Of a stretch of 45,896 bases of DNA, positions 324 through 45,896 are shown piece by piece. Under the pieces are notes generated by a model. It worked only from the letters and a program-made list of their open reading frames with translations. It had not been told where the DNA came from and made no database searches. Positions within the stretch are counted from its first letter, which is position 1. The number at the start of each line of letters is the position of its first letter. A program made the translations under genes and the position numbers. Source of the DNA: Robiginitomaculum sp. (lineage in GTDB: Bacteria; Pseudomonadota; Alphaproteobacteria; Caulobacterales; Maricaulaceae); the NCBI GenBank assembly GCA_023301505.1, contig JALZUP010000105.1, forward strand, positions 1 to 45,896, given 5' to 3'.

Positions 324-740
324 CTAAGAATACAATTCCATGGACTCCTCAATATAAGCACCCAGTTGTATTAAGTTATTGAATTTTACCTCTGCATCTG
401 GCTTTAGCGAATGAAAAGGAAATGTACCAGTAAGTGGCGTGTTTTTGACTAGCGAATACAATAAGCTTAATTTGCCATAAGGTGGCAAGGGCTTGTCTTC
501 CACAAAGGCTACAATAGATTTGGTAGCAGCCATTGCCTTTCCTCGATCTTGCGTCTGTATATCAAAGGATCGGTTGTCTAGCAATATCCGTTGTGCGGAT
601 TTGTAAGCCTCTTCTTGCAAGTTAACTTGTTGCTCAGATAAGACGGCAATAATCGGTAGATGTTGCTTGAAAAATAAAGCAGAGAATTGAAGGAATGTTT
701 GAGGCTCTTGGAGCTTCGTTGGGTTGGATTGATTTACCAT
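324..740 (-). CDS. hypothetical protein, paralog of 21996..22415
   Basis: 138-aa ORF; similar size, spacing and motifs to the second locus (LLYSLVK/LLYQLVC, FVEDKP/FIEKFSDKP); own promoter and structured leader. Confidence 0.75.
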   Translation of the reverse strand: MVNQSNPTKLQEPQTFLQFSALFFKQHLPIIAVLSEQQVNLQEEAYKSAQRILLDNRSFDIQTQDRGKAMAATKSIVAFVEDKPLPPYGKLSLLYSLVKNTPLTGTFPFHSLKPDAEVKFNNLIQLGAYIEESMELYS

Positions 741-897
741 GATTTGTCAATTATGGATGTTAAATAAAAAAAGCCGCCTTAATATTGGGTGACAAATCAT
801 GGACTTTACTACACAAGGTAATATACCAAAATAACCAATAAAAGACGGCTAGATCTTAATTAGATATAAGTGTAGTAAAGTAAAAATGATTTGTCAC
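741..897 (-). ncRNA. structured 5' leader (copy 1) with interleaved inverted repeats
   Basis: A 870..897 complementary to A' 789..814; P1 843..850 complementary to P1' 772..780 followed by T7; P2 hairpin 817..827; A'' 738..749 over the start codon repeats A. Confidence 0.65.
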
Positions 898-899
898 TA

Positions 900-929
900 C
901 AAATATAAACCTTTTTAGAATATGTCAAA
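900..929 (-). promoter_or_regulatory. Bacteroidota-type promoter for leader copy 1
   Basis: Minus strand TTTG (926..929), 18-nt spacer, TATATTTG (900..907), just upstream of leader element A. Confidence 0.65.
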
Positions 930-966
930 GAAAATTAATATTACAGCAACAAAAATAAGGCGATTT

Positions 967-980
967 CACGAATCTTGCAA
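967..980. promoter_or_regulatory. TTGCATAATTCGTG-like motif, copy 1
   Basis: CACGAATCTTGCAA; related copies at 4373, 17864, 18351, 22697, 34405, 37826. Confidence 0.5.
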
Positions 981-6470: not shown

Positions 6471-7916
6471 TTAAAATTGTTTTTCAAATAACTCAAATAA
6501 GTCCACATTATAAGCCTCACAGAAAGAGAACAAGAAATTAACTTTCAGTTCATTCTCACCAGATTCAAAACGAAAAAACTGACTAGAAGAGATGCCGTCT
6601 ACGCCGATTTTTTTTGCAGCATCTATGTACGTATCTTCTTTTAATTTTCTTATAACTCTGATGTTATACCTGATAAGGTCAGATTTGCTCAGAATATTTT
6701 CTGAATATTTTACTTTTTTCATATTGTCCCAAGCTAATTCTAAGTCTTTGACGACTAATTTTTTCTTTATTTTTGCATAAATAGTAGTCATCCTTTCGGT
6801 GCTATGGCCTAATAATTCTTGCAGGACTTCCCTACGAAGACCGAAAGTGATTGAAAGAGTAGAGAAAGTATGCCTAGCCGTATGCGGAGACATTTTTTTA
6901 TTGATGTTGAAAGCGGCATCTATATCTTTCAATAAAACCAAATAATGATCTTCGCAATAATGATAAAACAAAAATCCCTCTTCTTGTTTTAGATCAATCA
7001 TTTCTACTGCAGCTTCTAATAAGGGGATCGTATTTTTCTTCTTTCCCTTCTGCATTGTTTTCTCGATAAAGTACCTTTTTCCAATACCGTGTATCGTTTT
7101 TTCTGTCAAGTGCTCAGGCGTCAAGAATCTTGTATCGGAACCACGTAGGCCTGTATAACAAGCAAAAATAAACTGCCTTAGTACATTATAGTGTGCCTTT
7201 CTTAATCCTTTTTGCATCGAACCATCTAGTAAATAAGCCTTATAAGAAGCCTTTAGCCTTTCAAATTCGTCTAAATCGAGAGATTTTCTAGATTCCTTTT
7301 CCTCTGATTTTTCTTTAAATCCCTGAATATCAAGAAAGGCATTTTGATTAGGATATTGTTTTTTTTGCGCAGAGGCATAGACCCACATCAACACATTAAA
7401 ATACAAGAAAGCAGTAGCGTTCTTGTATTTTGCCTCTAGAAAGTCTCGGTATCGCTGGACTAACAAGTTGTTTAAGGCTCCGACGGTAATATCCGTCTTT
7501 GCAAACTTCTTAAAGCACTTCAAGGCATAGCCATATAATTCAAAGCTGCTTTTTTCTATATTTTCTTTATCCAGTTGCCCCTGATAAAAATCCATTCCTA
7601 ATTTAAACAAGGAAATATCCTTCTTAGGAAGGAAATCATTTTTGAACTGTCCAAAGTTAATGACCCGGCCATTCTCCTTGTATCTGATCAAAATATGCTT
7701 AGCTTCTTGGTGTTTTTTTAGAAATAGAGCATTCAATCTACTAGAAAAAGGCGCTTGTCTGGTTAGATAATTGGAGCCATTTGGTTTGAAATGTTTCTTT
7801 AATACCTTCTCTTCTAAAGATATATATCGACTCTCTCGATTAGCGGTGAACCTCAAATTTACGTATCCCTCGTCAGTATTTTTAATTCTACGCCATACAA
7901 TTCCTACTGTAGCCAT
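6471..7916 (-). CDS. tyrosine recombinase with C-terminal XRE-like HTH extension
   Basis: TGLRGSDTR, SPHTARHTF, LGHSTERMTTIYAK catalytic motifs; C-terminal IRKLKEDTYIDAAKKIGVDGISSSQFFRFESGENELKVNFLFSFCEAYNVDLFELF. Confidence 0.9.
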   Translation of the reverse strand: MATVGIVWRRIKNTDEGYVNLRFTANRESRYISLEEKVLKKHFKPNGSNYLTRQAPFSSRLNALFLKKHQEAKHILIRYKENGRVINFGQFKNDFLPKKDISLFKLGMDFYQGQLDKENIEKSSFELYGYALKCFKKFAKTDITVGALNNLLVQRYRDFLEAKYKNATAFLYFNVLMWVYASAQKKQYPNQNAFLDIQGFKEKSEEKESRKSLDLDEFERLKASYKAYLLDGSMQKGLRKAHYNVLRQFIFACYTGLRGSDTRFLTPEHLTEKTIHGIGKRYFIEKTMQKGKKKNTIPLLEAAVEMIDLKQEEGFLFYHYCEDHYLVLLKDIDAAFNINKKMSPHTARHTFSTLSITFGLRREVLQELLGHSTERMTTIYAKIKKKLVVKDLELAWDNMKKVKYSENILSKSDLIRYNIRVIRKLKEDTYIDAAKKIGVDGISSSQFFRFESGENELKVNFLFSFCEAYNVDLFELFEKQF

Positions 7917-8171: not shown

Positions 8172-8675
8172 TCAACTTTCAGGAGAAAGCAGTACCAAGA
8201 CCCGCTCAATCAGTTCATGCGCACCCACCCCTCCTTTTTCGCTAGCATAATCAATAGGGACCGCCTTTTTAAGTTTCTTTATATCAGACAAGATAGAAGC
8301 AAACAATTGATTATTGTAAGTATCTTGTTGTTTTAGTAATAGCTCTAGTGTTGCAATTCTTTCCTCCTGACTTTTAATCAGTTTATCTCGGTAGTCAATC
8401 TGCTCCTTCTTCTTGAATATGTCAACGCCCGTCAAATCGTCTTCCAAAAAATAACTGTCACTGACGCCCCATTTTTCTTGTATCAAGGTAACGATACTTA
8501 AGGTCGCTTTGTGACCGTCGCCTTTTTCTGCATTCGAAATGGTGCTCTGACTGTTTATTTTTAGGGCTTTTGCAAAAGCCGATTGGCTCATGCTTTTTTT
8601 AATTCTGAAACGACTAATGCGATGACCGATTAGTTTCAAAACTTCTTCGTCGCCTTTTTTTACGTTCATCATCAT
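8172..8675 (-). CDS. XRE-family transcriptional regulator
   Basis: ISRFRIKKSMSQSAFAKALKINSQSTISNAEKGDGHKATLSIV, coiled-coil C-terminus. Confidence 0.88.
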   Translation of the reverse strand: MMMNVKKGDEEVLKLIGHRISRFRIKKSMSQSAFAKALKINSQSTISNAEKGDGHKATLSIVTLIQEKWGVSDSYFLEDDLTGVDIFKKKEQIDYRDKLIKSQEERIATLELLLKQQDTYNNQLFASILSDIKKLKKAVPIDYASEKGGVGAHELIERVLVLLSPES

Positions 8676-15134: not shown

Positions 15135-16211
15135 TTGCACCAAAAAGATAATTTAATGGAAGAATTCTTCATCATAAAAGACAATCAATTTTTGATTGCT
15201 ACTACGATAATTAATCAGTTAAAAGGAAGCCACAACAAAGCTTACCAGCGATGGCGAAAAAGAAGGGGACTCGCAGCAGTCTTGAAGCTATCAGGCAAGC
15301 ATTATTTTACGGCGCAGGATACTTTAGTTTTTCTGAAGGGATATGTGCATACCGATGCCGGCGAGATGATTGGCGAGACTATCCAAACTATTATCAAGAC
15401 AATAGAGGATCTTATTAGTCAGGACAGTAAGCAAGCTGCGATTGTCTCGACAGATAAGAAAGTCGAGACAAGTGTCTCGGCAGTAGTGGTTGATAAAAAG
15501 GTAGTTGTCTCGAAAGAAAAAAAGTATACGCCTTCTTTTGAAAACAAGAATAATGTCTTAAGGAGTAAGACAGGTCCCGAATCTGTAAGTAAGATAATTG
15601 TTGCGAATGGGACAGTATCCAGTATAGTTGCAAATGATGTCTCAAGTAGTGAGACAATTACTTCTGTTCAATCCGACTCTAAGACAACTGTCTCAGCTAG
15701 GAAGGCGTTGGAAACAAAGGGTGTTTCGGAAGTGCAAGTCACTGGCGTAGATGTCTCGCCATTAAAGGAGACTAAGACTAACAGAAACGACCCATTACGG
15801 GCTATGCCTAGCGTACAACCAGTAACGGCTCTCAATTCAAGGATTAGACCTCTCAGTGAGACATTATTGGTTGAAGAAACAAAGGATGCAGTTAAAGGGG
15901 GCGAGACATTACGAGGGTATAGCGTCTCGGATGGTGGAGTGGCTGTATTGGAAGAGCCATTACTAAACGTCAAAACGAGACAGCGAGACAAGACAGTGGG
16001 ACGACAAGACAACGGGACAGCGAGACAAGACAGTGGGACAAGACAGTGGGACGACAAGACAACAGGACAGCGAGACAAGACAGTGGGACAAGACAGTGGG
16101 ACGACAAGACAACAGGACAGCGAGACGAGACAGTGGGACAAGACAGTGGGACGACAAGACAACAGGACAGCGAGACGAGACAGCGAGACAAGACGGTGGG
16201 ACGGAACCTAG
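15135..16211 (+). CDS. hypothetical repeat-containing protein
   Basis: 358-aa ORF; compact N-terminal domain, low-complexity linker, C-terminus encoded by 50-bp tandem repeats. Confidence 0.6.
   Translation: MHQKDNLMEEFFIIKDNQFLIATTIINQLKGSHNKAYQRWRKRRGLAAVLKLSGKHYFTAQDTLVFLKGYVHTDAGEMIGETIQTIIKTIEDLISQDSKQAAIVSTDKKVETSVSAVVVDKKVVVSKEKKYTPSFENKNNVLRSKTGPESVSKIIVANGTVSSIVANDVSSSETITSVQSDSKTTVSARKALETKGVSEVQVTGVDVSPLKETKTNRNDPLRAMPSVQPVTALNSRIRPLSETLLVEETKDAVKGGETLRGYSVSDGGVAVLEEPLLNVKTRQRDKTVGRQDNGTARQDSGTRQWDDKTTGQRDKTVGQDSGTTRQQDSETRQWDKTVGRQDNRTARRDSETRRWDGT
15991..16200. repeat. 50-bp tandem repeat array
   Basis: AGACAGTGGGACGACAAGACAAC recurs at 15991, 16041, 16091, 16141; AGACGGTGGGACG at 16191. 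Confidence 0.95.
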
Positions 16212-16707
16212 ATGGAAAGGAAATATAAAAACAAAGCCGTCTAAGTCAATCGGCTATAAGCTAGGTAAGTTGTTTTCTAGCTTTGGTTTCTTATACAGTG
16301 CTGCGATTGTACTTTGCTTTACTGAAAGTTTCTTCCTAAGAAGCTTTTTTATGGTAGACGGCGCAATAGGCGTTAATGAATATGTAGGCTTCCTGTCTTC
16401 CTTAGTTTTTAATGCCATTGCGCTTATCTGCGCCCTGAGTGAAGACATTTGGAGAAAAGCATTTATGGTCAACAGAGATTTAGAATTCACAGATAAGACT
16501 AAGACAAGCTATCTTTTGTTCTTCCTCTTCGCCTGGCATTTAGGCGCTACTTTTATTGTCTTGAATCAAGACTTCCACGACTTGTTTGCGCTGGAATGCC
16601 GATACCGAGACATCAAAAATATGTTTCGGGCGCTTGCAACAGCCTGCATTATGGTCTTTTTCCCTAAGACAATTATCGCTAAGTGGCGGGTGGAAAATGC
16701 TAAATAG
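16033..16707 (+). CDS. membrane protein ORF emerging from the tandem repeat
   Basis: GTG-started 224-aa ORF; from about 16246 GYKLGKLFSSFGFLYSAAIVLCFTE with about 4 hydrophobic segments. Confidence 0.6.
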   Translation: MGQDSGTTRQQDSETRQWDKTVGRQDNRTARRDSGTRQWDDKTTGQRDETARQDGGTEPRWKGNIKTKPSKSIGYKLGKLFSSFGFLYSAAIVLCFTESFFLRSFFMVDGAIGVNEYVGFLSSLVFNAIALICALSEDIWRKAFMVNRDLEFTDKTKTSYLLFFLFAWHLGATFIVLNQDFHDLFALECRYRDIKNMFRALATACIMVFFPKTIIAKWRVENAK

Positions 16708-19730: not shown

Positions 19731-20906
19731 ATGTGGATAGTTCCAAACAACCTAAAAACTTCTATAACCTCTCCCTATGTTCCGGTCTCCTCGGTATCGA
19801 AAGAGGATTGGAAGCAGTTATTCCCCACTTTAAGTCAGTCGCTTATGTGGAGATCGAAGCCTTCCCCATATTCAACTTGGTATCAGCGATGGAATCGGGT
19901 ATGGTGGCTCCAGCACCTGTTTGGTCGAATCTTAAGACCTTCGACCCACAACCATTTCGTGACCGAATACACTGCATCACTGGAGGTTATCCCTGCCAAC
20001 CCTTTAGCGTGTCGGGCAAGCAAAAAGGCACAACCGATCCCCGACACCTGTACCCTCATATGGAAGGGATTATCCGCACAATTAGACCTCTTTGCTGCTT
20101 CTTCGAAAACGTCCCCAATCACCTCAATATTGGGTTCGACAAAGTTTACCAAAGCTTACGCAGTATGGGCTACACAGTTGAAGCGGGACTATACAGCGCG
20201 CCTGAAGTCAATGGCCAGCACATCCGAAAAAGACTATTCATCTTGGCAGTGTCCGACATTTACCAAGTCAGGCAATATGTATCCGACACCAATGGCTCAG
20301 GAGGGCGCAACCAATACCAGCCCGAGCAACAAGAAAATAAGGCTGCAACTCAACAAAGCAGTCACTCATTGGTCCACTCCAAGGGTAGGGGGACAAGAAA
20401 AAGCGAAAACAAGAATAGCGAGAGGAAAGGATTTGGGCTTACAAGGTCAAGTCGAGATGGTGAATTGGCCGACACCGATCACAGCCACTTGCACCTATCA
20501 AGTACAGAGCGATGGGAGCAAAACACCGATGTTAAGAAAAATAGTATTGCCGCAGCAGAATTGGATGAGTCCCTTAGTATCAGATCACAAAGATACCTTC
20601 AACATGAAGAAGCAGAGAAATGGAAAAGAGCGTATCGATCAATTACCGAGACAATTATACCAATTGCTCCACCAGGACAACAACAGTATGAATGGGAAGA
20701 ACCAAGAACAAGACTCACTAGAAAAGTACACGACTATATTCGTAGACATACCGACGCACAAGGCAATATGCCGAGCCTATCAGAAAGGCAAGCTCAGTTA
20801 TATGCCTATCATGATGCTGCCCGAACGGATGAATCCAGCATGGGTAGCACAGTTAATGGGTATGACTTTCAAACAGAGCTTCTTCGCGCATATGGCAATT
20901 CGGTAG
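19731..20906 (+). CDS. overlapping alternative frame; C-terminal half Dcm-like
   Basis: 391-codon open frame; MYPTPMAQEGATN, HWSTPRVGGQEKAK, WPTPITATC, QNWMSPLVSDHKDT, RMNPAWVAQLMGMTF resemble the variable C-terminal part of phage Dcm proteins. Confidence 0.45.
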   Translation: MWIVPNNLKTSITSPYVPVSSVSKEDWKQLFPTLSQSLMWRSKPSPYSTWYQRWNRVWWLQHLFGRILRPSTHNHFVTEYTASLEVIPANPLACRASKKAQPIPDTCTLIWKGLSAQLDLFAASSKTSPITSILGSTKFTKAYAVWATQLKRDYTARLKSMASTSEKDYSSWQCPTFTKSGNMYPTPMAQEGATNTSPSNKKIRLQLNKAVTHWSTPRVGGQEKAKTRIARGKDLGLQGQVEMVNWPTPITATCTYQVQSDGSKTPMLRKIVLPQQNWMSPLVSDHKDTFNMKKQRNGKERIDQLPRQLYQLLHQDNNSMNGKNQEQDSLEKYTTIFVDIPTHKAICRAYQKGKLSYMPIMMLPERMNPAWVAQLMGMTFKQSFFAHMAIR

Positions 20907-21005: not shown

Positions 21006-21605
21006 ATGCAAAAAATCGAATATCTAATCAGATCTCTTGGTATTTCTAGAAGTACCAATGACCATCTAGAAATTTTAAATGAAGTGGGCCAAAAAGGATG
21101 GAAGTTGTCTAATAAAAGTATTGGAAGTCAAATGATTACTTATATTTTCGAAAAAGAAATTATTAAAGAGCAAAGATCTACAGTGGTAAAGCAAGAGCAG
21201 GAAGCGACTCTAAAATTAAGAGGCGAAAGAATCTTGCTTTTTAGATTGAAAAATAAGATTAGTCAACAAGCATTAGCTAAAAGGATTGGATTAAATCAAT
21301 TAGTTATAAGTAATGCAGAGAAAGGGCTTTTTGAAAAGTCTCAAGAAAGGGTAATTATTTTGATCGAAGATCATTTTTTTGTAGAAAAAGGTTTTTTTAT
21401 TACTGATTCACGTATAAAGCTTAATCTTTCCCTTGTCGATCAAGGAGAGATGTTATTCTTGGATTATAAAAAGAAAGAGCAGGAATATCGTTCGTTTCTA
21501 AACGGCATGAACAATGCAGAACTTAAAAATTATAATACAAATATGTCGTTTGACGATGGCATGTCTGCTAATCTTATTTATAATCGCAAAAATCCAACTG
21601 AGTGA
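21006..21605 (+). CDS. DUF4177-like N-terminus fused to XRE-like HTH
   Basis: LNEVGQKGWKLSNKS; RLKNKISQQALAKRIGLNQLVISNAEKG. Confidence 0.7.
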   Translation: MQKIEYLIRSLGISRSTNDHLEILNEVGQKGWKLSNKSIGSQMITYIFEKEIIKEQRSTVVKQEQEATLKLRGERILLFRLKNKISQQALAKRIGLNQLVISNAEKGLFEKSQERVIILIEDHFFVEKGFFITDSRIKLNLSLVDQGEMLFLDYKKKEQEYRSFLNGMNNAELKNYNTNMSFDDGMSANLIYNRKNPTE

Positions 21606-21995: not shown

Positions 21996-22415
21996 TTAGC
22001 TCATCTCCTCCAAATCCTCCACCAATTCATTTCCAAATACTAGCTGATGCGAAAGCCCGTAATATTGCGCCAAGCACATCATAGTGAGTGGCGATAGTTC
22101 CGCAAATAAGCCAGTGCTCCCAAACTGAGATTTGCAAACTAGCTGATACAATAGTTGCATCCGACGAAACGGCTTATCGCTAAATTTTTCAATAAATTCA
22201 AAAAGGCTTAAAGTTTCTTTTTCCCAAGATAACTGGGGAATAGGTAAGTCATACTTCTCCTGCTCGGCTAGAAGCATCTTTTTGGCATCGTCATAGATTC
22301 GCTCTAGTAATAGATGGAATTGGTCGGTAATAGCGGAAACGATGCCGTTGTTGGCTTGAATAAATTGCTTTCGCATCATGCGGAAGCTTTCTTGTTGTTG
22401 AATCTGATTTAACAT
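21996..22415 (-). CDS. hypothetical protein, paralog of 324..740
   Basis: 139-aa ORF with matching leader architecture. Confidence 0.75.
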   Translation of the reverse strand: MLNQIQQQESFRMMRKQFIQANNGIVSAITDQFHLLLERIYDDAKKMLLAEQEKYDLPIPQLSWEKETLSLFEFIEKFSDKPFRRMQLLYQLVCKSQFGSTGLFAELSPLTMMCLAQYYGLSHQLVFGNELVEDLEEMS

Positions 22416-22594
22416 TATGTGTTGTCGTTACATAAGTGAAATAATAAAGCCGCCTAAAAGTTGGGTGACAACACATAATGCTACAAACCTCATAGAGGAA
22501 TACAATAAAGTGACCAACAAATAGACGGCTAGTTCTTTTTGTGATTGATACGCCTAGTAGAGGTATCTTGTAGCTAAAGTTATGTTGTCGATAC
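22416..22594 (-). ncRNA. structured 5' leader (copy 2)
   Basis: A2 22560..22590 complementary to A2' 22467..22491; P1 22523..22530 / P1' 22448..22456; P2 hairpin 22488..22498; A2'' 22413..22427 over the start codon. Confidence 0.65.
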
Positions 22595-22600
22595 AAAGAT

Positions 22601-22608
22601 CAAACATA
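22601..22608 (-). promoter_or_regulatory. -7 box of leader copy 2
   Basis: Minus strand TATGTTTG (TAnnTTTG) just upstream of A2. Confidence 0.5.
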
Positions 22609-22696
22609 ACTTTCATATATCCAAATAGCTAAATTAATCACATTATCAATAAAAATACTAGCCTTATGGTTATTATCCAAGAACTTTGATAATAAT

Positions 22697-22710
22697 TACG
22701 AATCTTGCAA
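22697..22710. promoter_or_regulatory. TTGCATAATTCGTG-like motif, copy 5
   Basis: TACGAATCTTGCAA. Confidence 0.5.
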
Positions 22711-26818: not shown

Positions 26819-27610
26819 ATGGCTAAAAATAGCAAAATAGAATGGACAGATCATACTGTCAATTTATGGTGGGGATGCAGTAAAGTGCATACAGGATGCA
26901 AAAACTGCTATGCAGAATACCAAAGCGATAAGATGAAAAGAGGCACAAGAAATGGGAGCAAACTTTGGGGAGAGAAAACCTACCGACGAAAAATAAAGTC
27001 TGCTTTTTCAGATTTAGGCAAATATCAAGCACAGGCCAAAAAAGAAGGAAAAATGGCTAAAATATTTTGTGGATCCATGATGGATATTTTCGAAGATAGC
27101 AAGCCTTTAGTAGATATTAATGGGAATATATTGGAAGGCAGTACTGGAGATTTAAGAGAAGAATTATTTCAGGATATAATGGGTGGTATGTACGAAAATC
27201 TGATATTTCTATTCTTGACAAAGCGACCAAACAACATTGGTAAGATGATTCCACTCGAATGGAAAAATGGGGTCAAAAGTGTATTCTTTGGCACATCTAT
27301 TAGTGATACAGAAACCCTCAAGTATGCAGATGAGCTAAAGCAATTAAAATTCCAAAACCTCTTCCTGAGTATTGAGCCACAAATAGGGCCAATAATGACA
27401 GACGAGATAGACTTGAAAGGAATTGATTGGGTGATACAGGGAGGCGAAAGTGGCTATAATAAAAGGCCTTTCGATTTAGCATGGGCGTACGAGATGAAAG
27501 AGATATGCGAGTTATATGGCGTTCCCTATTTTTTTAAGCAAATAGATAAACGTCAAGCTATTCCAGAGGACTTAATGATCCGAGAATTTCCTGAATTCAT
27601 AAATCAATAA
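26819..27610 (+). CDS. phage Gp37/Gp68 family protein
   Basis: SKIEWTDHTVNLWWGCSKVHTGCKNCYAE ... FLTKRPNNI ... WVIQGGESG ... PYFFKQ. Confidence 0.9.
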   Translation: MAKNSKIEWTDHTVNLWWGCSKVHTGCKNCYAEYQSDKMKRGTRNGSKLWGEKTYRRKIKSAFSDLGKYQAQAKKEGKMAKIFCGSMMDIFEDSKPLVDINGNILEGSTGDLREELFQDIMGGMYENLIFLFLTKRPNNIGKMIPLEWKNGVKSVFFGTSISDTETLKYADELKQLKFQNLFLSIEPQIGPIMTDEIDLKGIDWVIQGGESGYNKRPFDLAWAYEMKEICELYGVPYFFKQIDKRQAIPEDLMIREFPEFINQ

Positions 27611-30022: not shown

Positions 30023-30189
30023 ATGTCCGTGACAGGGCAGCAAAGCGCCAAACAGGTATTTTACTGCTCAATTTTGTACATAAGATATTCCACAAAACAC
30101 AGTAATAGTCCTTTTCTATATCGCCCTTTTGAGTACCCCTACTCGAAAGGGCATTTTTCTGTTTTGAAATGATAGGAGGGATCATAAAA

Positions 30190-30270
30190 ATCATACCTCA
30201 TACTTCCAGCACGGTTTGAGTTAAACAGATATATGATTGATGATGTAGGATATATGATGTATGATTTTTT
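30190..30270. repeat. R3 AT-rich dyad repeat
   Basis: aatcatacctcat ... gatatatgattgatgatg...atgatgtatgatt. Confidence 0.7.
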
Positions 30271-30285
30271 TCAGAGGATAAACGA

Positions 30286-30440
30286 CCCCCAACCCCCAAG
30301 GGGGAGATCAGTTCAAAAGCATTGTCAAGGGATAAATACCAGATCAAAAATAGCGACACAAAAAGAGCAAAGACCCAATAAAAGGAAAAGCGGCGAATTA
30401 AGAGAAAGCACTGCACGCTCCCCCTTTGGGGGTTGGGGGT
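30286..30440. repeat. R4 MITE-like repeat
   Basis: CCCCCAACCCCCAAGGGGGAG ... CTCCCCCTTTGGGGGTTGGGGGT terminal inverted repeats. Confidence 0.85.
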
Positions 30441-30487
30441 AAGAAGCAAAAGAAAAAGGCACTATAGAACGATAAGCACCATCTAAA

Positions 30488-30634
30488 ATAAAATTATAAA
30501 TCAGAAATCATAAATCATACCTCATACCTCCATCACAGTTTGAGTCAAACAGATATATGATTTCACGCCCAGCACGCCCCACACGAACAGTCCCAACGGG
30601 ACGACACCTTGTAGCCCATGACGCAGTCATGGGA
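30488..30634. repeat. R3+R2 composite repeat
   Basis: R3 dyad then aacagtcccaacgggacgacaccttgtagcccatgacgcagtcatggga. Confidence 0.8.
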
Positions 30635-30810
30635 ATCTTCCCCATACCCCACCAAAAAAAAACATAAAAAATAAAAAAAAAACACCTTTTCCCCTTTATA
30701 GCAACCCTGCCCCAAAGCCCTCCCAAACAAGCACAAAAACAAATAAAAATCAATAAAAAAAGATAATTTTGTATAAAAATTGATAGAAATAACGCAATTA
30801 TTATATAAAA

Positions 30811-33642: not shown

Positions 33643-33672
33643 TCCCTACGTTCATCGGGTGAATCCTGTTAG

Positions 33673-33839
33673 CGAAATCATAAATCATAAATCATACATC
33701 ATACCTCATATATCCATCTAGTCAGATAGATATATGATTGATGATGTATGATATATGATGTATGATTTCACGACCAGTACGCCCCACACGAACAGTCCCA
33801 ACGGGACGACACCCTGTAGCCCATGACGCAGTCGTGGGA
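33673..33839. repeat. R3+R2 composite repeat
   Basis: Same order as 30488..30634. Confidence 0.8.
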
Positions 33840-33852
33840 TCTGCGACACATC

Positions 33853-33983
33853 ACAATCCATCTAACCAGATAGATATATGATTGATGATGTAAGATACAT
33901 GATGTATGATTTCAAGCTCATCACGTCCCACACGAACAGTCCCAACGGGACGACACCCTGTAGCCCATGACGCAGTCGTGGGA
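33853..33983. repeat. R3+R2 composite repeat (adjacent second copy)
   Basis: R2 ends 15 nt before ATG 33998. Confidence 0.8.
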
Positions 33984-33997
33984 GAAAATAAAACAAA

Positions 33998-34360
33998 ATG
34001 GATCAAAAAAGCATCATCCCAACCAATACTAGCCCTGGCAATATAGTAGAATACCCCGTAGTAAAAATAACATTACAAAGAATAGGAAAAGTATCCAAGG
34101 CGCATATAAGAGATCTACTCGGAATAAATTACGACGAGTTAGCCGTTACCCTAAAAGAGCTAAAGGAGCAAAACGAAGAGTTCAAGGCGATATATACAGA
34201 TGTTGCAGCCAGAAGACATTATCTAACAGCGAACATGGTCGTTATGATTATGCAAAGTGTCTATGCCAACTCAAAAATAATTTTCCTGCTGCCTGAAAAA
34301 AGACCAAAACGCCAACAGGTACTAGGTAAATCAAAGGTAGGCGAAACTAAAGAAAAGTAA
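33998..34360 (+). CDS. hypothetical protein
   Basis: 120-aa ORF. Confidence 0.65.
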   Translation: MDQKSIIPTNTSPGNIVEYPVVKITLQRIGKVSKAHIRDLLGINYDELAVTLKELKEQNEEFKAIYTDVAARRHYLTANMVVMIMQSVYANSKIIFLLPEKRPKRQQVLGKSKVGETKEK

Positions 34361-36403: not shown

Positions 36404-36423
36404 AGGAAATGTGTGGCAAAAAA

Positions 36424-36583
36424 AATCATAAATCAGAATTCATACATTATACATCATAAATCCAACACGGATTGAATCAAGTAGATATATGATTTATGAA
36501 GTATGATTTATGATGTATGATTTCACCAAGCAAGAACAGGGGCAACGCCCCGACACCTTGCAGCCCATGACGAAGTCGTGGGA
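36424..36583. repeat. R3+R2 composite repeat
   Basis: R2 stem here GGGGC-AAC-GCCCC instead of GTCCC-AAC-GGGAC. Confidence 0.8.
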
Positions 36584-36601
36584 TTTTTACGAAGTAAAAA
36601 G

Positions 36602-41400: not shown

Positions 41401-41977
41401 AGCGGGGGAGTTAGGTCCCTTGTATTTCGACAATTCTTTCTATGCCGCCAATTCTGGTTTTTGGGTAGATAACGGTGCGGCACATGTAATATATGACATA
41501 GTATACTGCGAAAAAGAAAGCGCTTCTAAAGTAATTAACTCGTCAAGGATGTTAAATATTTCAGTCGATAATATTCCAGTTGATGATATAGCTAATTCGC
41601 CTTGGTTTTGGCAGTATGCGGCAACAGGAATAATTGAAGAAGAATTGAAAGAAGAAATGTCTTTCTTTAATTTATCCCAAAAAGACTTAGATAATTTGAT
41701 TGTCAGTATAACAGCAGATGCAAGTATAGGGGAAACCAGTGAAGAACTGTCTGAAAAGATATTCTTTCATCTAAAGCGCCCATACGCAGTAAGCACTATC
41801 TACAGAGAATTCAAGTTAAAGCAACTAAGAACTTTCTCGATAGATCGTAACATCATCACAGAAGATCAAAAAATAAGGAAAACAGATCTAATCATTAGAA
41901 TGTTAGCCTGGGCACAAAAAAACCGAATCATCACAAAGGCGCAATACGAGGAAGAGGTCCTAAGGGTGGCTCAGTAA
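38459..41977 (+). CDS. large secreted Cys-rich protein, putative surface/receptor-binding protein
   Basis: 1172 aa; signal peptide MKQVILYFFLLLTSFSAFSQ; many CC/CxxC motifs; helical C-terminus. Confidence 0.8.
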   Translation: MKQVILYFFLLLTSFSAFSQEGDLARACVVESNDFVALNESIQVEFVRGVACCYTDSIMPNGKLYKLPECPDFVWGECQKESNCYVSKNAYWLIDNTGTSFAENTIYEIKWDDGTVSVTSQLPTTSWTNQLLYWAAVTFNDGTDLCLEQPSCDDFGPNGCGGLPAPPTEVLNSGQDLKPIFARYLNQTCCYTERIPKEVTIVGGDNPARIGRKLPLVVFYGAEQKYNVCESCGEEPIFYAWGTENIIAEKDLPICTEPCGFQFPALTKPTCTFFLVDGCDQNATPVKAVKIQFVDCGDGKVINAIYEIDATGALIDYQPIEVDGEVDIDDCNGGIIVSPVPVVDCYDYSQLEREICIISDGIECAAYQTINYCDNIATDTTVSTIEGVTTEYTQIDCNKCYQIAGCLDFRLAVASIVTLGDGTTIPVSGSGKQQDVIDAVVAQCGGTGYYALGLNQGGQSYTCDNVNLGEFVFTGLSCDLESFTTQFGIYNFTDYGNCGYPITIAQENCTKSERAFCALIDGVNKTIYRIVETCNTTENITYEDALGNPVKGTEFKECNCADYLVQDLFELQEVTGDLIVRNWDISTIIPNDFPNEAAASQILDNFDFTQTPTSGPVSSADLTLNDTNNSGQVQDVEVKKGYIIVDAPISLRFYANSEGVLRVRLGDCCSELIELYTYAKSVGLESTPTIDLQKGIHRIELINLDYGASNSKWTTQYSYDNINYTNDNTPPGIRYSSTKPNEICKKVQKCTTTGAFTDFLTNNPVDIANCYTKSLLCTPAPVVAQNEGCVQICADPCDGVDLKSTKTQSEYDCRVSNIEYDSTFNWMCIDGVKLPKDTIVVENTISEGCQDIPDMKLSADLDDGDLQIVGWNGPQNQPNCPLYGSFTFCFKADLSAPNTLTMVSLSKDPNETTWVSEFVWYLQNRTAPRAAYYEITGGYVDGWENLTANSVVEICMDRDIVAATMTYTRDGVVDFVSNLTTAGELGPLYFDNSFYAANSGFWVDNGAAHVIYDIVYCEKESASKVINSSRMLNISVDNIPVDDIANSPWFWQYAATGIIEEELKEEMSFFNLSQKDLDNLIVSITADASIGETSEELSEKIFFHLKRPYAVSTIYREFKLKQLRTFSIDRNIITEDQKIRKTDLIIRMLAWAQKNRIITKAQYEEEVLRVAQ

Positions 41978-42115
41978 ATCATACATCATACATTATACAT
42001 CATATATCCAACACGCAAGCTAAACAGATATATGATTTAAGATGTATGATTTCGACAACAACAAGAACAGTCCCAAAGGGACGACACCCTGTAGCCCATG
42101 ACGCAGTCATGGGAC
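41976..42115. repeat. R3+R2 composite repeat
   Basis: R2 ends 15 nt before ATG 42130. Confidence 0.8.
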
Positions 42116-42129
42116 TTAGAAAAGCAACC

Positions 42130-42665: not shown

Positions 42666-42696
42666 TCATCGGACGGCGATAGCCATCCGATGAATA
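42666..42696. repeat. R1 hairpin repeat
   Basis: tcatcggacggcgatagccatccgatgaata. Confidence 0.9.
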
Positions 42697-42723
42697 AGCA
42701 AGGAGAAACAGAGGATAAACAAC

Positions 42724-44131: not shown

Positions 44132-44163
44132 TTCATCGGACGGCGCTAGCCATCCGATGAATA
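44132..44163. repeat. R1 hairpin repeat
   Basis: ttcatcggacggcgctagccatccgatgaata. Confidence 0.9.
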
Positions 44164-44200
44164 GGAAAGGATACTATAATCATAATTAAAAAAAAATAAA

Positions 44201-44596
44201 ATGCTAGGATTGCCACACATAATATCAGGATTAGTTGGATTGGCTTTAGGAACTTTGTTAGACGAAGAAATAAATGAAAATACAGATAATGAAACCGACC
44301 CAGATAATGATAGATATTATGTTTTTTTTGAAGGAGAAGATAATGATGGTAGCAGCAGAAAAATTTCTGTTAATTTTCCTGAATACAGGAAAGCAGTAGA
44401 TTTTTACAACTCAATTAATAAGTTGAAAGAATTTAGTTTAGAAAAAATTAAAGATAACGAATATTTTGAGGAAGGAACGATGTATAAGGATAGAGATATA
44501 GAATTTTATTTAGAGGAAGGTGAAAAATACAAATCAACAGAAGTTTCAATAGGATATGGAGACCAAACATTTGAAAGATTGGTGTTTGATGTATGA
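44201..44596 (+). CDS. hypothetical acidic protein
   Basis: 131-aa ORF. Confidence 0.65.
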   Translation: MLGLPHIISGLVGLALGTLLDEEINENTDNETDPDNDRYYVFFEGEDNDGSSRKISVNFPEYRKAVDFYNSINKLKEFSLEKIKDNEYFEEGTMYKDRDIEFYLEEGEKYKSTEVSIGYGDQTFERLVFDV

Positions 44597-44617
44597 TTTT
44601 CCGAACAGGAAAAACAA

Positions 44618-44771
44618 CCCCCAACCCCCACGGGGGAGATCAGATCAAAAAGGTATTATCACAGGATAAACGCCAGATCAAAAAAAATTGATAAAGGACA
44701 AAGATCAGATCAAAAAGAAAAGCAGCAACTTAAAAGAAAGCACTGCAAGCTCCCCCTTGGGGGTTGGGGGT
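44618..44771. repeat. R4 MITE-like repeat
   Basis: Terminal inverted repeats as above. Confidence 0.85.
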
Positions 44772-44823
44772 AAGAAACAAAAACAAAAGCCAAGATCAAA
44801 AGGATCAGCACCATCTAAAAAAA

Positions 44824-44922
44824 AATCAGAAATCATAAATCAGAATTCATACATCATATATCCACATGATTTAAACCACGCAGATATATGATTGATGATG
44901 TAAGATGTATGATCTATGATTT
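44824..44922. repeat. R3 AT-rich dyad repeat
   Basis: aaatcataaatcagaattcatacatcat ... gatatatgattgatgatg. Confidence 0.75.
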
Positions 44923-44939
44923 TGTCACAGGACAAACAA

Positions 44940-45095
44940 CCCCCCAACCCCCAAGAGGGAGATCAGATCAAAAAGGAATTATCACAGGATAAACGCCAGA
45001 TCAAAAAAAGATTGATAAAGGACAAAGATCAGATCAAACAAAAAGCAGCGACTTAAAAGAAAGCACTGCACGCTCCCCCCTTGGGGGTTGGGGGT
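44940..45095. repeat. R4 MITE-like repeat
   Basis: Terminal inverted repeats as above. Confidence 0.85.
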
Positions 45096-45289
45096 AAGAA
45101 ACAAAAGCAAAAGCCAAGATCAAAAGGATCCGCAACATCAAAAAAAAGCCACTCAAAAAGAGCAGCTTTGAAAAATTCCTATAAAACGGAGAAAACTTAA
45201 TCGAAACACTAATGATTAAGTAATACAGCAAATATATACATAAATATTCCATAAATCGTAAAAACAAAGCAATTAAATATAGAATTATT

Positions 45290-45697
45290 ATGAAATATAA
45301 GATTTTATCAATTTTTACCCTACTAATACTAGCAGTTACGCTAGCCAGCGCCCAAACAAAAATAGGCCAACTAGCACCCTGCCTAGACGCAGCAGGCGCC
45401 CCATTAGCAGGCTGTCAAATCATATCGGGGACTGACGGGAAATACAAGCAAGTAGTATTCGCTGCTTGTTTATGTGTAGATGGAAACGTGATCAAAAAAT
45501 ACGTCAACGCAAAAAACTACGCAGACACCTGCCACACGGAAATACTACCAGGCTTATGCAACGAGGAGCAAGTAGTCGTTAATCCGATTACGGAATCGAG
45601 TAGTTTCGGATTGTGCAGCAGCACGATTACGGAAACGAGCAGCTTCGGGCTATGCAGCAGCACGATTACCGAAACGAGTAGCTTCGGGTCCTGCTAA
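45290..45697 (+). CDS. secreted small Cys-rich protein with C-terminal 13-aa repeats
   Basis: signal MKYKILSIFTLLILAVTLASAQ; ITESSSFGLCSST repeats (39-bp units at 45587, 45626, 45665). Confidence 0.75.
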   Translation: MKYKILSIFTLLILAVTLASAQTKIGQLAPCLDAAGAPLAGCQIISGTDGKYKQVVFAACLCVDGNVIKKYVNAKNYADTCHTEILPGLCNEEQVVVNPITESSSFGLCSSTITETSSFGLCSSTITETSSFGSC

Positions 45698-45725
45698 ATA
45701 TATGATCTTGTCACAGGACAAACAA

Positions 45726-45878
45726 CCCCCAACCCCCAAGGGGGAGATCAGATCAAAAAGGTATTATCACAGGATAAACGCCAGATCAAAAAGTATTATC
45801 ACAGGATAAACACCAGATCAAGCAAAACGCAGCCACTTAAAAGAAAGCACTGCAAGCTCCCCCGTGGGGGTTGGGGGT
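45726..45878. repeat. R4 MITE-like repeat
   Basis: Terminal inverted repeats as above. Confidence 0.85.
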
Positions 45879-45896
45879 AAGAAACAAAAGCAAAAG

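Follow-up and report, generated by a model that had tools for sequence, protein, structure and literature searches.

Three leaders and the genes that follow them

Two small protein genes on the minus strand of the window, by which is meant the whole 45,896-nucleotide stretch of DNA analysed, are each preceded by a leader in which one segment, A', is complementary both to a segment before it, A, and to a segment after it, A'', that includes the start codon. The original prediction was of a twin locus, but the element has three copies. Copy 2 lies at 22413-22625 (a whole-genome DNA search matched 22397-22537), and copy 3, absent from that prediction, was found via protein searches at 20547-20760 of a second contig, C256. 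For copy 1 a sequence check located every element on the minus strand where it had been placed, and its description was accurate. The features of copy 1 are:

968-980, minus strand: upstream element TTGCAAGATTCGT, an exact 13-mer
900-929, minus strand: predicted promoter of Bacteroidota type, TTTG-N18-TATATTTG, which aligns with the boxes of copies 2 and 3
886-897 (outer) and 870-881 (inner), minus strand: A, a seqA-like upstream target, from its complementarity to A'
842-850, minus strand: 5' strand of P1, AGCCGTCTT, of which AGCCGTC is identical across the three copies
835-839, minus strand: 5' strand of P2, ATTGG, from compensatory pairs
817-827, minus strand: small hairpin GGTA-TAT-TACC
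789-814 (789-800 plus 803-814), minus strand: A', the seqB-like antisense segment, which lies in the loop of P1/P2 and can pair with either A or A''
784-788, minus strand: 3' strand of P2, CCAAT, from compensatory changes
766-780, minus strand: 3' strand of P1, AAGGCGGCT, with T-run, terminator-like (P1' 772-780, T7 766-772)
737-749, minus strand: A'', TGACAAATCATGG, a seqC-like downstream target complementary to A', with the ATG at 738-740
324-740, minus strand: gene for a 138-aa protein, presumed regulated, a paralog of the copy 2 and copy 3 genes

Those of copy 2 are:

22698-22710, minus strand: upstream element TTGCAAGATTCGT
22594-22625, minus strand: predicted promoter TTTG-N20-GATCTTTG, near-identical in copy 3
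22568-22590, minus strand: A, CGACAACATAA...GCTACAA, from its pairing with A'
22523-22530, minus strand: 5' strand of P1, AGCCGTCT
22466-22487, minus strand: A', TTTGTAGCATTATGTGTTGTCA
22440-22455, minus strand: 3' strand of P1, AGGCGGCT, with T-rich tail
22413-22426, minus strand: A'', GACAACACATAATG, with the start codon at its end, a 14 nt perfect complement to A'
21996-22415, minus strand: gene for a 139-aa protein, presumed regulated

The order promoter, A, P1, P2, A', P2', P1' with T-run, A'' with ATG, gene is common to all three copies, and it persists although the leader-bearing proteins are only 25-49% identical, that of copy 2 being 25% identical to the copy 1 protein and 49% to the copy 3 protein. 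AAGAnCT is conserved immediately before P1, and P1' is followed by T7 in copy 1, TTTATTATTT in copy 2 and TTTTTATTT in copy 3. The small hairpin has an equivalent with other letters, CCTC-TAT-GAGG, at the same position in copy 2, and is not evident in copy 3. An exact-core pattern gave exactly three matches in the 3.84 Mb genome, in which a covariance model built from the three copies found no further convincing copy. Upstream, TTGCAAGATTCGT has four exact copies in the 3.84 Mb where about 0.1 would be expected; three are upstream of the three leaders (that of copy 3 at C256:20431-20443), and it is possibly a regulator site or promoter element. The fourth site, on another contig at C102:1427-1439, sits between two host-like genes.

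What do the genes encode? The leader-linked proteins are of 138-144 aa, and comparison with Pfam, PHROGs, NCBIfam, PADLOC and PDB sequences gave no match that passed the cut-off, which bears out the earlier statement that the 138-aa gene has no recognised family. A model of the copy 2 protein, of moderate confidence (mean pLDDT 66.6), consists entirely of helices and has no fold match with E <= 0.001. Hairpins follow the copy 1 and copy 2 genes, so both units look monocistronic. A fourth protein paralog, at C256:5364-5753, is without the leader RNA.

Pairings and their maintenance among the copies

As had been proposed, A' has alternative partners. In copy 1 the two 12-nt arms of A show 100% complementarity to A', as does A'' over 13 nt, start codon included; in copy 3 a bulge interrupts A':A'', which has 8+7 bp and no single perfect run. 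Might this be chance, or an artefact of repeats, given that the contig has many AT-rich dispersed inverted repeats? That is very improbable in view of there being three copies, of the controls now described, and of the dispersed repeats being a separate low-complexity family. When perfect complements between start region and upstream leader were ranked for 99 ATG starts, covering both leader-bearing contigs, copies 2 and 1 came first and second (14 and 13 nt), and the next longest, of 12 and 11 nt, were mostly within the dispersed low-complexity repeats. Dinucleotide shuffles paired equally well in 0, 0 and 1 of 2000 cases for A:A' (copies 1-3) and in 8, 3 and 4 of 2000 for A':A''. The letters of A, A' and A'' vary among the copies, and for every A' the most stable partners are the A and A'' of the same copy: self A:A' pairing is at -35.1, -32.9 and -35.5 kcal/mol, against -15.1 to -27.6 when swapped between copies, and self A':A'' pairing at -25.9, -32.8 and -34.3 kcal/mol, against -15.0 to -23.5 when swapped. 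In 22 unrelated viral loci with P1/P1' words by chance, the loop/flank complements were of just 5-8 nt. Start complements at 42046 and 30194, considered as extra members, were rejected as part of the dispersed AT-rich repeats.

P1 (AGCCGTC/GGCGGCT) is unchanged in 3/3 copies, including an invariant U-G pair. P2, whose stem letters were set in register by hand, is ATTGG/CCAAT, GTTGG/CCAAC and TGCTG/CAGCA in copies 1-3; both sides are changed in four of its five pairs, and the observed measures are matched in 2-6 of 500 shuffles, the covariation support being from three sequences in one genome, which are few, yet with a consistent signal. A failure to covary had been named beforehand as a refutation, and that outcome did not occur. 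The promoter match is not significant by itself (1 found against 1.2 expected). A terminator scanner makes no call on the P1 and T-run of copy 1; the terminator-like arm, with a loop of about 62 nt, is unlike an ordinary tight terminator, and the T-run of copy 2 is broken. The observation of the leader is confirmed as genuine and is stronger than first claimed.

The element is best read as RNA. An improbable reading would have A, A' and A'' as DNA operators around promoter and start, bound by the encoded protein or a repressor. It would gain from the GACAA core being repeated in A and A'', with TTGTC in A', in every copy, and from A overlapping the presumed transcription start. However, the extended pairings include bulges and G-U pairs (copy 3), the U-G pair in P1 is invariant, the P2 covariation spans the intervening loop, the 150-bp spread including the start codon would be unusual, and the encoded protein is without a recognised DNA-binding family. 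Slightly less probable again is a unit resembling type III toxin-antitoxin systems, i.e., a promoter, a structured and possibly pseudoknotted RNA, a terminator and an RNA-binding protein. The gene order matches, A:A' and P1:P1' are interleaved, and the invariant P1 could serve as a protein-binding site; but the leader has no tandem RNA repeats, the protein has no ToxN-family match and no toxin match in Pfam, NCBIfam or PADLOC, its all-helical model, of moderate confidence, has no fold match, and the tracking of A' by A'' at the start codon is left unexplained.

Competing folds and a self-targeting antisense leader as a possible mechanism

Predicted energies for the full leader put A:A' at -47.7 and A':A'' at -45.0 kcal/mol in copy 1 (-34.7 with P1 enforced), and at -47.7 and -45.3 in copy 2 (-41.6 with P1 enforced); copy 3 favours A':A'', at -63.9 against -52.8 for A:A' (-58.1 with P1 enforced). 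P1:P1' interleaves with A:A', as originally described, and is predicted to be less stable than it by 13 (copy 1) and 6 (copy 2) kcal/mol, though as the folding program does not allow pseudoknots the two could coexist. In copies 1 and 2 the predicted A':A'' state retains the inner A:A' helix, so that the contest concerns the outer half of A'; the earlier proposal, that A' pairs with either A or A'', holds for that half and not for the inner helix. When the core is folded by itself, lacking A, it adopts P1/P2 and leaves A' partly open (mean unpaired 0.63, 0.49 and 0.46). Because P1:P1' is weaker than A:A' in copies 1 and 2, A would in most cases have to be occupied or removed for termination to follow. 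The modelling favours A as a cis antiterminator whose occupation, e.g., by the A' of another molecule, would restore P1 and the T-run. The suggestion that P1:P1' and T7 terminate is right as to arm and T7 being present, but in copies 1 and 2 the arm is predicted to lose to A:A' unless A is occupied or removed.

The sequence itself shows the pairings, their preservation by compensatory change across the three copies, their specificity for self and the rivalry of the predicted folds; promoter use, termination, a stable short RNA, its action in trans, a translational block and any role of the protein in immunity or timing are what we infer. What is proposed, and thought to have slightly better than even prospects, is a self-targeting antisense leader working like P4 CI or P1/P7 C4 RNA. 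Transcription would begin at A. With no short RNA present, nascent A would capture A' on its emergence and keep P1 apart, so that polymerase would read through, the start codon would be free and the 138-144 aa protein would be made. Were P1:P1' to form instead, transcription would stop at the T-run and release an RNA of about 130-150 nt with A' in the P1/P2 loop. The A' of such a short RNA may pair with A of new transcripts, freeing P1 and promoting termination, and with A'' of read-through transcripts, covering the start codon and blocking initiation; in cis the outer half of A' may swing from A to A'' with the inner helix staying. In a resident element the OFF state would then reinforce itself, and on entry there would be a burst of protein. 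A released RNA retaining A is predicted from its energy to fold A onto A', so action in trans would require that P1 wins kinetically or that A is trimmed. The C4 RNA is trimmed by RNase P, at the 5' side of P1. There are no other good A' targets on either contig, and the A' sequences of copies 1 and 2 are orthogonal on one contig, as expected of trans RNAs avoiding cross-talk.

Is anything needed in trans? A leader switch acting in cis alone, in which A:A' would leave the start free and A':A'' hide it, the choice being set by protein, ribosome or ligand and any short RNA being a by-product, predicts the co-divergence of A, A' and A'' equally well. This is the strongest rival, though we consider it unlikely. 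Diagonal specificity is expected in cis too, A:A' and A':A'' are within 3 kcal/mol with the inner helix shared (copies 1 and 2), as in branch-migration switches, and same-frame small ORFs from A' could couple translation to folding. However, a two-state A/A'/A'' switch needs no invariant P1, covarying P2 or Ts, and the known leaders of such layout act in trans (PMC4825925, PMC5320573). As a P4 CI-type layout acts in trans, a released short RNA would more likely be the regulator than a by-product. The interpretation in the original prediction is, then, partly supported: its alternative pairings stand, and the layout points to trans action as well as to the cis switch it advanced.

Known immunity RNAs, distribution and genomic setting

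Antisense-RNA control of lysogeny and immunity is known from a few proteobacterial elements, and the self-targeting leader design mainly from the P1 and P4 immunity RNAs; it is apparently unreported in this bacterial group. The CI RNA of satellite phage P4 has two pairing sites, seqA before cI and seqC after it, and pairing leads to premature termination (PMC4825925). Here too one antisense segment has upstream and downstream targets on one transcript, A' being complementary to both with diagonal pairing in three copies. Unlike P4 CI, to which there is no sequence relation, the downstream target here covers the start codon; the leader precedes a single small gene, which it seems to control, and not a satellite-phage replication operon; and the host is taken as non-proteobacterial, Bacteroidota being deduced from promoter type and repeat style. 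P4 CI is a trans-acting terminating short RNA, whereas the terminator-like P1 and T-run here are seen in sequence only.

The C4 RNA, listed for Proteobacteria and phages (PMC2864571), has a conserved scaffold, a variable loop that determines specificity, and loops partly overlying ribosome-binding sites (PMC5320573). The present leader resembles C4 of P1/P7 (RF01695) in being a same-strand RNA upstream of the target gene, in combining a conserved scaffold with variable specificity segments, and in coverage of the translation start region, its A' segments being complementary to the downstream start over 13, 14 and 8+7 nt. It falls outside the Rfam C4 family: an Rfam scan of the three copies gave no RF01695 match up to E = 10 and no relevant family, and P1 here encloses one long A' in place of the three-hairpin form with a' and b' loops. 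The third comparison is with IsrK of Gifsy-1 in Salmonella, where the short RNA that results from termination interacts with the mRNA that results from read-through (PMC4825925). The shared features would be one promoter serving both products and alternative folds governing translation; unlike the repression predicted here, short IsrK activates its own mRNA, and there is no sequence relation. A small ORF with its ATG inside A' is in the same frame in 3/3 copies (17, 61 and 25 codons), crossing P1' toward or beyond A'', and it could either encode a leader peptide, as orf45 does in isrK, or be there by chance.

Relatives of the protein were absent from GenBank phages, plasmids and viral contig scans, and from 149 relatives, 398 order and 395 class genomes. 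A covariance-model search (R1), a check suggested at the outset, recovered just the three copies and two weak 39-40 nt terminator-like matches in 137 family and 395 class genomes, with no convincing relative. The best viral R1 match (L117, 30.8 bits) was rejected, being without A/A'' complementarity. In the viral contigs of IMG/VR, scanned, as was GTDB, by exact patterns that distant relatives could escape, RNA pattern scans gave 13 and 22 matches, all chance on inspection; the 53 matches in GTDB contigs were also judged chance, full reading being limited to those under 50% GC. The linked phage genes as a lead reached no related phages. On present evidence the element is lineage-specific, with no relative found outside its own genome.

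A broader idea, which we hold tentatively and with rather less than even confidence, is of an independently evolved, lineage-specific counterpart of P4/C4 immunity in Bacteroidota phages, where one A' would switch termination of the nascent leader that carries it, through A, and cover the start codon, through A'', and several orthogonal specificities would coexist per cell and even per phage-like contig. If true, a phage-like element of Bacteroidota would have arrived at the same logic with unrelated sequence, arguing for convergent evolution; there would be a compact model for one segment setting both termination and translation; and a single genome would supply three natural orthogonal RNA switches to a phylum in which such tools are scarce. 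A new family of small phage-associated proteins, seemingly in need of tight control, is suggested as well.

Copy 2 is in a phage-like region, judging from integrase, repressor-like, replication-O-like and endolysin genes:

6471-7916: integrase, with a weak HTH match
8172-8675 and 21006-21605: repressor-like HTH proteins

The replication-O-like match is weak, and the window also has an endolysin and a methyltransferase. Copy 1 lies towards one end, on the far side of the integrase and of a DnaB gene, of which the genome has at least three, and may or may not belong to the phage-like element of copy 2. The genes of C256 include those for a GH108 endolysin, a ddrB/ParB-domain protein and a collagen-repeat protein. 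The two HTH repressor-like proteins, on one contig, are 40% identical mutually and are perhaps two immunity modules. A protein of the DUF5131/Gp37Gp68 family (26819-27610) is related to genes in many phages, and overlapping ORFs at 15135-16707 are made of internal repeats about 90% identical.

Dispersed intergenic repeats are at 30174-30650, 33670-34000, 36416-36600, 41964-42127 and 44590-45896, and are of several types: AT-rich ATATATGAT hairpins, CCCCCAACCCCC boxes and a GGGACGACACC...CCCATGACGCAGTC hairpin unit, the last overlapping two Rfam Acido-Lenti-1 matches (42069-42113 and 30589-30633). Intergenic hairpins of the TTCATCGGATG...CATCCGATGAA type are at 1621-1651, 42666-42704 and 44133-44171, after the copy 1 gene and upstream of copy 3; they are common to C256 and are probably a terminator or repeat family.
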